Shown one piece after another: positions 5,495 through 52,545 of a stretch of DNA of 64,000 nt (position 1 is the stretch's first letter; each line of letters starts with the position of its first letter). Under the pieces are notes generated by a model, which did not search any database, was not told the origin of the DNA, and saw only the letters and a list, made by a program, of their open reading frames with translations. Location: contig JAFTRX010000078.1 of assembly GCA_017462015.1 (NCBI GenBank), positions 106,740-170,739 on the forward strand, written 5' to 3'. This DNA comes from Lentisphaeria bacterium. Its GTDB lineage: Bacteria > Verrucomicrobiota > Lentisphaeria > Victivallales > Victivallaceae. Position numbers and translations under genes: made by a program.

Positions 5495-6847
5495 ATGTTT
5501 GATACCAAAGATATTATTGAAACAATAAGTATGATCCGGGAAGAGTGCCTGGATATCCGTACTATCACGATGGGGATCTCTCTCTACGATTGCCAGAGCG
5601 AGAACCCTGAACGCCTTTGCAGCCGGATATATGACCGTATCATGTCCCGCGCGGCTAAATTGGTGAAGACCGGCGAGGATATCGAAAAAAAATATGGTAT
5701 CCCCATCATCAATAAGCGGGTCTCCGTTACTCCCATCGCGTTGATGGCGGGCGGATTGTCTGTTGACGATGCCGTGAAGGTCGCCAAAACCCTGGACCGG
5801 GCGGCGCATGAACTGGGCATCAACTTTATCGGCGGTTTCAGCGCACTGGTGCAGAAAGGGTTCACTAACGGAAGCCGTGCCGTCATTGATGCCATTCCGC
5901 AGGCGCTGGCGGAGACGGAACGGGTCTGCTCATCGGTCAATGTCGCCTCTACCAAGGCCGGGATCAATATGGATGCCGTGGCGCAAATGGGACGTATCAT
6001 CCGGCAGACGGCGGATATCACTGCCGACCGGGATGCCATCGGTTGTGCCAAACTGGTGGTTTTTGCCAACGTTCCGGAAGACAACCCGTTTATGGCGGGG
6101 GCGTTTCACGGTGTCGGAGAGCCGGAGACGGTCATCAATGTCGGTGTTTCCGGTCCCGGTGTGGTCGCCTCTGCCATCCGGCGCAAAGGTGACTGCAATT
6201 TGACGGAAGTTGCGGAAACGATCAAACGTACCGCGTTCAAGATCACCCGGGTCGGACAATTGGTGGCAAAAGAGGCTTCTGAACGTCTGGGCGTGCCTTT
6301 CGGTATCGTGGACTTGTCGCTTGCTCCCACTCCGGCGGTCGGCGATTCAGTTGCCTACATCCTTGAATCCATGGGACTGGAAAAGTGCGGATGCCACGGA
6401 ACCACTGCGGCGCTGGCGATGCTCAACGATGCCGTGAAAAAGGGCGGAGTTATGGCGTCGAGCCATGTCGGCGGTTTGTCGGGGGCTTTTATTCCGGTGT
6501 CGGAAGATGCCGGTATGATCGAAGCCGCCAAGTGCGGCGCGTTGAGTCTGGATAAGCTGGAAGCGATGACCGCTGTCTGTTCGGTCGGTTTGGATATGAT
6601 CGCCATTCCCGGCGATACTCCGGCGGAGGTGATTTCCGGCATCATCGCGGATGAAATTTCCATCGGCGTAGTCAATACCAAGACCACGGCGGTGCGGTTG
6701 ATCCCCGCAGGCAAAGTTGGAGATATGGTCTCTTTCGGCGGTTTGCTCGGCGAAGCGCCGGTGATCCCGGTGAGCAACTATTCACCTGCCAAATTCATTG
6801 GCCGCGGAGGACGGATCCCCGCGCCGCTGCAGAGTTTGAAGAACTGA
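5495..6847 (+). CDS. PFL family protein (UPF0210/DUF711)
   Basis: This 450-residue protein of the UPF0210 family begins [20 protein letters not shown] and contains the conserved segments [23 protein letters not shown] and [29 protein letters not shown]. Structures in the family show a pyruvate-formate-lyase-like barrel, but no glycyl-radical motif (RVxG) near the C-terminus is seen, so radical chemistry is not implied. It forms a two-gene operon with the ACT-domain gene, which probably senses a ligand for it. The biochemical role of the family is not established. Confidence 0.87.
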
Positions 6848-7076
6848 TATTGTTTCCTTGGGAAAGGTGCGGCATAACTCGCTTCAATGACAACACCGTT
6901 ATTGAAAAAATATTATCTCCCCTCAGGGGGATAGAGCATTTGTTAAAATTTTGCGAGGCGGTCAGAGCGCTCGGCGGCAACCGCCTCGCATCACTATTCC
7001 AAGACAGCTTTTATTGCGCACAAATTCCGCAGTCAGCGGTGTTTGTGATAAAAATCCAATAAAAGTATGCTTTGCC
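6848..7076. other. Intergenic region before guaB with two inverted repeats
   Basis: No credible gene lies here. A perfect 11-bp inverted repeat (6952-6962 with 6980-6990, stem TGCGAGGCGGT) encloses 17 nt that contain the palindrome GAGCGCTC. No T-tract follows, so it is not a typical intrinsic terminator. A smaller hairpin, TCCCC-TCA-GGGGA, lies near 6918-6930. Confidence 0.6.
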
Positions 7077-7137
7077 GGTTGAAAAAACTCCTTTTCGGGT
7101 GTATTTTATATAAAAGGAGTATAATAATATTTCAACC
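7077..7137 (+). promoter_or_regulatory. guaB promoter with nested dyad symmetry
   Basis: TTGAAA (7079-7084), 17 bp, then TATTTT (7102-7107) forms a sigma70-type promoter. An alternative perfect TATAAT lies at 7120-7125 but has no matching -35. Two nested perfect inverted repeats surround the core: GGTTGAAA/TTTCAACC (7077-7084 and 7130-7137) and ACTCCTTTT/AAAAGGAGT (7087-7095 and 7112-7120). This layout would suit a dimeric repressor operator or a supercoiling-sensitive cruciform; that reading is inference. Confidence 0.6.
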
Positions 7138-18850: not shown

Positions 18851-19224
18851 AGAACGCTGTGGACATGGGCAATCGCGGCGGGGGAATTCGTTCCCGCGTT
18901 GAGGAAAGTCCGGACTGCACAGAGCAGGGAGCCCCTTTGAAAAGAGGGGTGCCGCAGACCATACTCTGCGGAAAGACCAGTGCAACAGAGAGAAGACCGC
19001 CGGTTGATTTTTCAGCCGGTAAGGGTGAAAGGGTGGGGTAAGAGCCCACCGGGCGGTAATGAGAGTTCCGCTGCAAGGTAAACTCCTCCCGCAGCAAGAC
19101 CAAATAGGGGACGAGTCGTTGCTCGCGACGTTACAAGTCCCGGGTTCTGGTCGCATGAGACAGATGATTGCCACCGCCGTAAGGCGGTACAGAATCCGGC
19201 TTACAGTGTCTGCGGCGTTCTTTT
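18851..19224 (+). ncRNA. rnpB: RNase P RNA, bacterial class A
   Basis: The catalytic RNA that matures tRNA 5' ends. Conserved blocks in order: GAGGAAAGTCCGGACT (CR-I, about 18900), ACAGAGAGAAGACCGCC (about 18984), AGGGTGAAAGGGTG...GGTAAGAGCCCACC, AGACAGATGATTGCC and ACAGAATCCGGCTTACAG (CR-V). Helix P1 forms between AAAGAACGC (18849-18857) and GCGTTCTTT (19215-19223). The closing T-run probably also terminates transcription. Length about 370 nt is usual for class A. The gene has its own promoter. Confidence 0.95.
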
Positions 19225-38505: not shown

Positions 38506-38550
38506 ACCCCGTATGTGAAAATATTCATGTGCGGGGTTTGATTTTTTATA
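38506..38550 (+). terminator. Intrinsic terminator of the dehydrogenase operon
   Basis: The arms ACCCCGTATGTGAA (38506-38519) and TTCATGTGCGGGGT (38524-38537) form 14 pairs, including G-T wobbles, around a 4-nt loop. TTGATTTTTTAT follows. Confidence 0.85.
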
Positions 38551-38678
38551 GAAAATGATTATATTAAAAAAGATGTTTTTTATATAAACGGGAGGATTTT
38601 TTCAATATTATAGAGAATAATTTTAGTTAAATGCTGGTAAGAAATATTTATCAGCATTAAAAATTGAATAATCGACAT
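38551..38678. other. AT-rich leader with a hairpin, no gene
   Basis: Sharply AT-rich compared with the flanking operon. AATGCTGGTAA (38630-38640) pairs with TTATCAGCATT (38648-38658) in an 11-pair hairpin. CGGGAGG at 38589-38595 resembles a ribosome-binding site but no start codon follows in range. The -10-like TATTAT at 38606-38611 lacks a good -35. Confidence 0.5.
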
Positions 38679-38824
38679 CCGCTCCAGAACTACCACTTCT
38701 AAAAGAGATGTCAGCACGATATATCCGGCGATGTTGTCAAATACTTGGCGACTCATTCCGGAGAGTGTATTGTGCTGGCTGTGGTAGGCTTGGAGCGGAC
38801 ATTCCTGGAATGGTCGCTTTTTTT
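38679..38824 (+). ncRNA. Candidate structured RNA with overlapping terminator (attenuator- or riboswitch-like)
   Basis: Stem P1 pairs CCGCTCCA (38679-38686) with TGGAGCGG (38791-38798) and CTACCAC (38690-38696) with GTGGTAG (38781-38787), flanking a 3x3 internal loop. P2 pairs GTCAGCACGATATA (38710-38723) with TGTATTGTGCTGGC (38766-38779), mostly Watson-Crick. P3 is TCCGG/CCGGA (38724-38728, 38758-38762). P4 is GTTGTC/GGCGAC (38733-38738, 38747-38752). A terminator, AGCGGACATT (38794-38803) with AATGGTCGCT (38809-38818) and seven T, reuses five bases of the P1 3' strand, so the two folds exclude each other. I do not recognise a known RNA family. Confidence 0.5.
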
Positions 38825-38898
38825 AATACTAAAGTCGGGAGGTTTTATGATAAAATATTAAGTCTAAAAATAAAACAAGTTCAATTACAGCTGCTGTT

Positions 38899-38937
38899 CG
38901 CTCCAGATCTACCACATCAAAACGTACAAGTCAGCCC
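38899..38937 (+). repeat. Truncated second copy of the structured-RNA 5' strand
   Basis: CGCTCCAGATCTACCAC (38899-38915) plus the following 22 nt, including AAAA and GTCAGC, repeat 38680-38717 with few changes and one indel. A preceding CGGGAGGTTTT (38836-38846) also resembles CGGGAGGATTTT at 38589, suggesting a duplicated unit whose second copy lost its 3' half. This copy could also pair with GTGGTAG/TTGGAGCG of the first. Confidence 0.65.
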
Positions 38938-39081
38938 AAAACATATAACAGAATAATTGTATTGAGGTCATTGCGAAAATCCTCATTTTCTTCGATTTTT
39001 CACTTACCCGGATCGTGCCTGAATTCGGGAATGTTTTGCTGTGCAGATTTCCGGAGCATAGTTCAAAGGAGTGAAAAAATT
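38938..39081. other. AT-rich leader of the GT9-like gene
   Basis: An open frame runs from 38962, but its first 40 codons are unlike the downstream protein. The ribosome-binding site AGGAG (39067-39071) favours ATG 39082, so this is treated as leader. A weak hairpin TGAGG/CCTCA (38963-38985) is followed by TTTTC. Confidence 0.5.
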
Positions 39082-40086
39082 ATGTTTAGTGTATTAAAGA
39101 AAATAATCAGACTTTTTATCGGCTTGCTTCCCCGGCGATTGGAAACTGCAATTTACAAAATGATTTTTTCTGTAACGAAGCATCGTTATCACAGTTACGG
39201 AGAAATTCAAAAATATTTCCCTGTCAATAAAAACTTATCTTCAACAAAGGAAATATTGTTTTCTCACAGTGGTCATTTGGGAGATATTTTGTATTCATTG
39301 TATTTTTGTAGGGAATTGTCTGCCGTATATGGAATGGAGAGTTTTAATTTCCACATCAGAACCAATGTGGCATCTCCTGAATTAAAAAATTTGAAGCATC
39401 CATGCTGTGAGGTAAGAATAACTTTTGAAAGCGCTAAATTCCTTGTCGGATTGCTGGAAAATCAAAGATATATAAACAGAGTGAGTTATGGAGATGAACT
39501 CCCGGAAAATGCCATTGATCTTGATCTTTTTCGCAAATTACCTGTAAATTTCAGTGCAGGGCATATTCCTGATTACTATTATGATTTGGTTGATAAGCAT
39601 TTGCCAAGACTATTCGGAGAAAAGATTATATCTGTTGAACCGGATTATAAATACCATGATAAAATAGCAGTGATCGCGACCTGCCGTTATCGAAATGTTT
39701 TCGTTGATATGGGCGCGTTAAAGCCATTTCGGGAACATTTGGTTTTTGTCGGATTGCCGGAAGAGTACGAAGATTTTTGCAAAAAATATTTTACGCTGGA
39801 ATATATGAATACAGGAAAGTCTATGCATGACATTGCACGCTGCTTTTCCTGTATAAAGGGCGTTATCGGTAATCAAAGTGGACTTTTTGCATTGGCTGAA
39901 TGCATGAAAATACCACGAATCCTGATCGCTGCCGATTTTTTTGAGCTTGGTGGTCGTGTGGTTGCCGGACCATGTAATGTAATTCCGCAAGGCGGATGGT
40001 GTGAGCGCGTATCAACAACTGCCAAACTGGTTTCTGTGGTAAAAGAGTTGGTGAGTTGTTTTGAAAACGTGACTGATATTACATGA
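39082..40086 (+). CDS. GT9-like (heptosyltransferase-fold) protein, AT-rich
   Basis: About 334 residues. KEILFSHSGHLGDILYSLYFCREL matches the GT9 N-terminal block, and KGVIGNQSGLFALAECMKIPRILI matches the sugar-nucleotide-binding block, although the rest is divergent. AGGAG lies 10 nt before ATG. The gene is clearly richer in A/T-ending codons than its neighbours, stands alone between terminators and has the candidate structured RNA upstream, all consistent with horizontal acquisition. It may add a sugar to LPS, capsule or another surface glycan; donor and acceptor are unknown. Confidence 0.65.
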   Translation: MFSVLKKIIRLFIGLLPRRLETAIYKMIFSVTKHRYHSYGEIQKYFPVNKNLSSTKEILFSHSGHLGDILYSLYFCRELSAVYGMESFNFHIRTNVASPELKNLKHPCCEVRITFESAKFLVGLLENQRYINRVSYGDELPENAIDLDLFRKLPVNFSAGHIPDYYYDLVDKHLPRLFGEKIISVEPDYKYHDKIAVIATCRYRNVFVDMGALKPFREHLVFVGLPEEYEDFCKKYFTLEYMNTGKSMHDIARCFSCIKGVIGNQSGLFALAECMKIPRILIAADFFELGGRVVAGPCNVIPQGGWCERVSTTAKLVSVVKELVSCFENVTDIT

Positions 40087-52345: not shown

Positions 52346-52400
52346 GGAAACGGCAAAATTCGAGTCTTGACGGAATTGTCCTCCCGTTTGCTCAACTTTT

Positions 52401-52530
52401 CTTCTGCCATCCAGACTTTACTGTCGGTTATGGAATTGCACCATATCTGCCGGAAATGACACTTCCGGCTCGCGGACTTTACCGCCGGTCAGGGAATTAC
52501 CCGCTGTCACAGATTCACCCTGCCCTGAAG
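52401..52530 (-). ncRNA. FMN riboswitch (RFN element)
   Basis: Read on the minus strand it shows the conserved RFN blocks in order: CTTCAGGGCAGGGTGAA, ATTCCCTGACCGGCGGTA, AAGTCCGCGAGC, a variable GCCGGAAGTG/TTTCCGGC arm, GGTGCAATTCCATAACCGAC, AGTAAAGTCTGGATGGCAG and AAG closing P1. It binds FMN and lowers expression of ribBA when FMN is abundant (established for the family). Confidence 0.95.
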
Positions 52531-52545
52531 ATTATCACAGATAAT

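Follow-up and report, generated by a model that had tools for sequence, protein, structure and literature searches.

The question raised by this locus is whether the RNA-like element upstream of the gene at 39082-40086 is a regulatory leader of that gene and, if so, which of its strands compete ahead of the run of T residues at its end. The locus lies in a 64,000-nt stretch of contig JAFTRX010000078.1 from a Lentisphaeria bacterium (hereafter the window), and all features are on the forward strand unless stated otherwise. A first-pass annotation had described a rod-like RNA starting at 38679, closed by a stem that competes with an adjacent intrinsic terminator. From the comparative analysis below, 38538-38824 probably constitutes a 5' leader for the gene at 39082, acting in cis as a riboswitch-like transcription attenuator.

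Anatomy of the leader and comparative support for its helices

A putative sigma-70-like promoter is formed by TTGATT (38538-38543) and TATATT (38560-38565), separated by a 16-nt spacer, and TTGACA or TTGAAA together with TATATT-like boxes lie about 80-110 nt 5' of the element in many of its copies. Between the promoter-like boxes and the element is a purine-rich, Shine-Dalgarno-like GGGAGG (38590-38595), and most copies include a similar ribosome-binding-like motif (GGAGG, GAGGT or AAAGG) at a distance of about 40-90 nt 5' of the element. In neither case does a start codon follow, and inspection of the copies revealed no conserved start codon or frame for a leader peptide behind the motif. A 29-nt hairpin, AATGCTGGTAA..TTTATCAGCATT, occupies 38630-38658, and hairpins such as ATGCG..CGCAT take the equivalent place in Kiritimatiellae-type copies. 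The promoter-like sequence and this hairpin (38538-38658) both lie 5' of the point at which the element was first thought to begin. The Kiritimatiellae-type copies L160-L174 also have two hairpins 5' of the element, one behind a conserved ACATAG and the other GCGTCAACGC-like; the leader may include a further 5' domain in these copies.

The rod of collinear stems reported by the first-pass annotation was recovered. The predicted fold of 38660-38830 has an energy of -73.6 kcal/mol, as compared with -40.9 +/- 3.7 kcal/mol for 200 shuffled sequences, none of which folded as well (0/200; z = -8.8). P1 (CCGCTCC, 38679-38685, paired with GGAGCGG, 38792-38798), 'P2' (38690-38696/38781-38787), P3 (38710-38723/38766-38779) and P4 together make up a single rod, in which P3 (38710-38779 overall) carries P4, formed by strand W (38725-38738) and strand X (GGCGACTCATTCC, 38747-38759). 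A further stem, P0, pairs GACATC (38674-38679) with GATGTC (38707-38712), bases just 5' of P1 with bases just 3' of hairpin P5, and is a pseudoknot that crosses P1 and the K:K' contact.

The two strands of 'P2' double as the loops of two small hairpins. Strand K (CUACCAC, 38690-38696) is the 7-nt loop of P5 (38686-38700, stem AGAA/UUCU), and strand K' (GUGGUAG, 38781-38787), which is complementary to K, follows a U in the loop of P6 (38777-38790, stem GGC/GCU). Elsewhere, the flanks of K are able to close a hairpin of their own as TGAA/TTCA, AGAA/TTCT, AGAT/ATCT or CAAA/TTTG, and as GAAATA/TATTTC in distant copies, and those of K' as ACGC/GCGT, GCGT/ACGC, ACAC/GTGT, GGC/GCC or GTC/GAC. Because both strands are loops of small hairpins, 'P2' is probably a 7-bp loop-loop (kissing) contact, referred to here as K:K'.

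Covariation was assessed on 122 non-redundant copies against a null that preserves the tree and the number of substitutions on each branch. Ten of 15051 pairs were significant, all of them within P1 and K:K' and six in P1. P0 and the pairing of X with strand Y (see below) fell below significance in this tree-preserving test, and their support comes from swap and slide controls. P1 was fully paired in 84% of copies, in 55 distinct versions, as compared with 5% when strands were swapped between copies; the corresponding values for K:K', with 25 distinct sequence combinations, were 95% and 33%. Over 57 copies, K:K' was 100% and P6 97.6% paired. The duplex score of P0 was 13.2 within copies and 10.1 +/- 0.19 with strands swapped between them, and its versions elsewhere include CGTC/GACG, GGCT/AGCC and GTCGTTC/GAACGAC. 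P6 is well supported, and P5, which was 57-67% paired with 36-40% in the control, moderately supported. Overall, strand-swap tests were positive for K:K', P1, P6, P0 and X:Y. The controls W:Y, Z:X and W:Z, in which Z is the strand preceding Y, were flat, and these pairings were rejected. Compensatory changes among homologues, which the first-pass annotation had proposed as its own test, were found in P1, K:K', P3 and X:Y.

Few columns of the alignment (A5) are invariant, fragments such as GCATTTC and GCUGUGGUAGGC recurring inside subtypes, and few unpaired nucleotides show strict conservation, an unusual trait in an aptamer for a small molecule. This scarcity, together with a heterogeneous regulon, would fit a leader in which an RNA-binding protein or an RNA acting in trans, instead of a metabolite, sets the switch, or one set by the speed of transcription as a constitutive attenuator, a reading that we regard as plausible, if short of probable. 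Against it, a candidate protein was not found, NusG being the protein examined. A single NusG is encoded in genomes G000, G035, G038, G040 and G033 and in most other RNA-positive relatives. As most carriers have only this one, a factor of the RfaH/UpxY type is unlikely and was rejected as the partner; other proteins are unaffected by that argument.

Competition for the strand before the T-run

Strand Y (GGAATGGTCGC, 38807-38817) adjoins directly a run of seven T residues (38818-38824), and a T-run of at least five was found in 120 of 126 copies. As the first-pass annotation had observed, the 3' strand of P1 has bases in common with a short local hairpin, Z:Y (38795-38805/38807-38817), that precedes the T-run. 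The annotation took competition between P1 and this hairpin to be the key event. Mutually exclusive folds in the layout of a riboswitch or attenuator are indeed found, but the strand before the T-run has in X, rather than in the strand overlapping P1, a far better conserved partner: X:Y is 96% paired over 57 divergent copies, as compared with 67% for Z:Y across the family. All 11 pairs of X:Y include a compensatory change, slid registers gave 33-59%, and in the Bacteroidota and Planctomycetes copies X:Y is 86% paired vs 37-48% in the control.

X is the 3' side of P4, and W and Y are thus rivals for it. W:X is 72% paired over the 57 copies and scored 17.5 in the swap test, as compared with 15.4 +/- 0.18 for swapped strands. 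X:Y is incompatible with the rod while P3, P4 and P1 stand, so that P1, K:K' and W:X on the one hand and X:Y on the other are mutually exclusive folds, both with comparative support for selection. When X:Y was forced, a long hairpin was obtained that is capped by P6 and ends at the T-run, leaving the 5' P0/P5 hairpin free. Its loop spans about 60 nt, which is unusually long for a terminator. As judged by nested-fold energies, the rod is favoured over the X:Y fold by a median of 15.5 kcal/mol, a value that leaves K:K', possible in the X:Y fold too, uncounted.

A switch between the 3' strand of P1 and the adjacent terminator hairpin Z:Y, as first proposed, draws support from the real overlap in the window genus, where GCGG is common to both structures, from the second tandem element, which uses the 3' strand of P1 as its terminator 5' arm, and from an overall Z:Y pairing somewhat above that of shuffles. 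However, Z:Y is 67% paired only, its compensatory-pair and pair-type counts are no better than those of shuffles, and 18 of 122 copies have it at weaker than -5 kcal/mol; it rises above a minor pairing in only some members of the family. We consider this switch unlikely. The pairing statistics suggest that in the first element the competition runs mainly via X:Y.

The X:Y pairs further include 90 G-U as against 4 A-C combinations, and selection therefore acts on pairing at the level of RNA, on the strand of this orientation. This asymmetry argues against a recombination site operating at the DNA level, such as an integron attC or the end of a mobile cassette, as do the pseudoknot P0 and X:Y, which are unlike a folded attC, and the conserved promoter and T-run. 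Such a site would account for a rod-like inverted repeat with variable stems, for the one gene per element, and for the tandem leader and gene pairs and copies near contig ends. Inspection of the copies revealed no RYYYAAC/GTTRRRY boxes at the element ends, and no tandem cassette arrays were found, the copies being dispersed or at most paired; the attC or cassette site was rejected and is very improbable. Leader and gene units occur as tandem pairs at L084, L087, L089, L118, L121, L123 and L096, and at L084 the two leaders (6001-6168 and 6924-7091, 923 bases apart) are identical, as are the two encoded proteins.

The 5' strand of the rod recurs at 38899-38937, as annotated before. What had been called a truncated duplicate is the start of a second folded element (38893-39061), with its 3' strand at about 39030-39059, which is kept in five relatives. 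In the window, this element still has its 5' strand and closes in a weak stem, and it has lost the terminator. The downstream copy is complete at L007, L008 and L009, with its own P0 (ACTTGT/ACAAGT), P1 and terminator. P1 in this second element is GTGTCCG/CGGACAC, and GTATCCG/CGGATAC in L008, which is a compensatory change. The 3' strand of P1 is the terminator 5' arm in these three relatives, and therefore the layout in which P1 competes with the adjacent hairpin is real for their second element.

The gene downstream of both elements (39082-40086) is an open frame of 334 aa behind AAAGGAG, and its product is presumed from sequence resemblance to be an LPS or glycan enzyme. The product had no match in Pfam, and peptide patterns found no relatives of it in GTDB contigs. 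Hence, the earlier label 'glycosyltransferase' is unproven, but the glycan-gene context of the tandem elements is recurrent: they precede a protein with an FkbM methyltransferase domain at L010, and family-2 glycosyltransferase-like ORFs lie near L007, L008, L010 and L011.

Distribution and downstream genes

The first-pass annotation had been unable to match the element to a known riboswitch, 6S RNA, SRP RNA or T-box, and this was upheld. At the gathering cut-off, Rfam 15 gave nothing near the element in the window, and at E values up to 10 only chance-level matches to the element itself were obtained, such as Entero_OriR at 21 bits. 6S RNA, SRP RNA and T-box were rejected, as none of their Rfam models matched the window or the element. 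An ordinary FMN riboswitch (52395-52536, reverse strand) and an ordinary bacterial RNase P RNA (18857-19219, forward strand) are present in the window. The element was also unmatched at about 50 loci scanned with Rfam 15 (15, 19 and 14 of them beyond the window), where only tRNA, RNase P, FMN and TPP were found elsewhere. No description of this RNA was found in the open-access literature, nor by term searches of three genome-wide RNA discovery papers (PMC8040213, PMC8632094 and PMC11109978).

BLASTN against 78 genomes of the family identified the rod and the downstream copy in relatives of the same genus, which are Lentisphaeria and at least in some cases from the ruminant gut, and single rods in other genera. 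By a covariance-model search, 54 of the 137 genomes sampled from the order (~40%) carry the element, with up to 10-11 copies each. The window's own genome has four copies. Of 388 genomes from the phylum, 55 had copies by a second model, the matches outside the order being weaker, yet of the same anatomy. GTDB was then scanned with a gapped pattern (AACTACCAC N84-114 GCTGTGGTAGGC), which matched 109 stretches, as compared with about four expected by chance on a rough estimate. Beyond Lentisphaeria and Kiritimatiellae, these were mostly from Bacteroidota (Prevotella, Segatella, Hoylesella, Bacteroides, Barnesiella, Alistipes and Pedobacter) and a few from Planctomycetes; at least one, in Metallosphaera (L179), looks like a chance match. 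Carriers come from the gut as well as the environment and belong to several phyla, with Segatella maculosa DSM 19339, Bacteroides salyersiae (L214) and Hoylesella saccharolytica among the cultured ones. A third model found the element in all 40 records searched, which had been picked for having a pattern match, so that the figure is not a prevalence; several have 4-10 dispersed copies, and some Prevotella genomes up to 10. BLASTN found no match to the element among phages, nor to the Bacteroidota copies among plasmids and phages. Four IMG/VR contigs classed as viral (L288, L289, L290 and L291) include the element beside a related protein of 161-176 aa, of which the one scanned (L288) had no match in Pfam.

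Of 118 copies, 68 have the best-scored start codon no more than 40 nt from the element end and 87 no more than 80 nt from it, and the longest downstream ORF is on the same strand as the element in 88 of 114. The first-pass annotation had offered a small RNA as its alternative, that is, an independent transcript ending at the T-run, with the downstream gene incidental. The promoter-like sequence of its own, the T-run and the diversity of the downstream genes are in keeping with such an RNA. However, a start codon lies 15-80 nt beyond the T-run in most Lentisphaeria copies, which leaves no room for another promoter and weakens the small-RNA reading. Gene families also recur behind the element across phyla, namely M48 peptidases (L071, L332), TM2 proteins (L012, L258) and EcoRI-like methylases, and P1 and K vary freely, so that a target in trans would find no conserved base-pairing seed. 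A small RNA is thus quite improbable, and a leader acting on the adjacent gene remains the preferred reading.

Among the products of the downstream genes that were annotated are zinc-ribbon and TM2 proteins, staphylococcal-type nucleases, EcoRI-like adenine methylases, GmrSD, dynamin-like proteins, M48 peptidases, proteins with Sel1 and ankyrin repeats, nucleotide-sugar enzymes and an FkbM methyltransferase, and no one function common to the downstream genes points to a ligand. A subgroup in Bacteroidales has common P1 and X:Y sequences, typically GGGCGTGGA/TCCACGCCC, and all eight copies examined (L183, L186, L194, L211, L220, L225, L253 and L335) precede restriction-modification or abortive-infection genes: four for cytosine methylases and one each for a D12 adenine methylase, an HNH nuclease, a McrB-like ATPase and an AIPR protein. 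Another subgroup, in Prevotella, has mostly secreted proteins and lipoproteins downstream, as judged by eye from their N-termini. These subgroup counts are descriptive. Proteins of 110-130 aa with a QPxLxxxCP-type motif are encoded directly behind the element at L085, L086, L073, L084, L087, L089, L131 and L153; the one scanned, from L084, had no match in Pfam.

Proposed mechanism and relation to known systems

Comparison among sequences establishes the helices P0, P1, K:K', P6 and X:Y, the conservation of the T-run and the placement ahead of genes, all of which are consistent with the following course of events. The transcript ends are predicted, with a start near 38572. The 5' part would fold first into P0 and hairpin P5, displaying loop K. 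As P3/P4, P6 and the 3' strand of P1 emerge, K:K' would form and P1 would close, and the result would be a compact knotted rod, with W retaining X. Alternatively, X would quit W and pair with Y just before the T-run, forming a long terminator hairpin capped by P6. Termination would thus go with X:Y and read-through with the rod, and whichever fold prevailed when RNA polymerase reached the T-run would lead to termination, with an RNA of roughly 250 nt, or to read-through into the gene. A ligand, a protein or an RNA signal would shift the balance between the folds. The window has two such elements in tandem, the second without its terminator.

It is conceivable, though doubtful, that the copies in Bacteroidota and the PVC phyla form one riboswitch class, through which a single intracellular signal reaches restriction-modification, abortive-infection, glycan and secreted-protein genes. 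If so, phage-defence genes of gut bacteria would be under control at the RNA level, and the 8/8 Bacteroidales copies before defence genes raise the idea that an RNA switch may gate such genes. The wide spread, the multiple copies and the lack of a match in Rfam 15 suggest that dominant gut phyla have a layer of regulation that has gone unrecognised. Natural compensatory variants of K:K' and X:Y would serve as ready-made mutants on how a kissing contact may drive termination.

The element would work like a riboswitch or attenuator, and membership of a named class is not claimed. Like the leaders of processive antitermination systems (RfaH/ops and EAR/put), it precedes glycan and accessory genes. 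The GGTAG frequent in K' presumably resembles part of ops, which we take as a lead only. Unlike in those systems, K' co-varies with K, so that there is no fixed recognition sequence, the element has its own T-run at the end, and most carriers have no NusG paralogue. The c-di-GMP riboswitches (GEMM, RF01051, and c-di-GMP-II, RF01786) occur in many copies per genome before diverse, often surface-related genes. The present element is likewise multicopy before diverse genes, but differs in having no Rfam match. With trp-type attenuators (1:2, 2:3, 3:4) it shares overlapping strands, X choosing here between W and Y, with Y beside the T-run; in contrast to them, no leader peptide or conserved start codon was found, and the pairing of the switching strand bridges about 60 nt, other hairpins included. 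Terminating riboswitches of the purine type (RF00167) are similar in their 5' leader position, in a compact loop-loop fold set against an intrinsic terminator and in several copies per genome. The present element, unmatched in Rfam, is instead a linear rod rather than a three-way junction, with a full 7-bp kissing contact of freely varying sequence and the extra pseudoknot P0.
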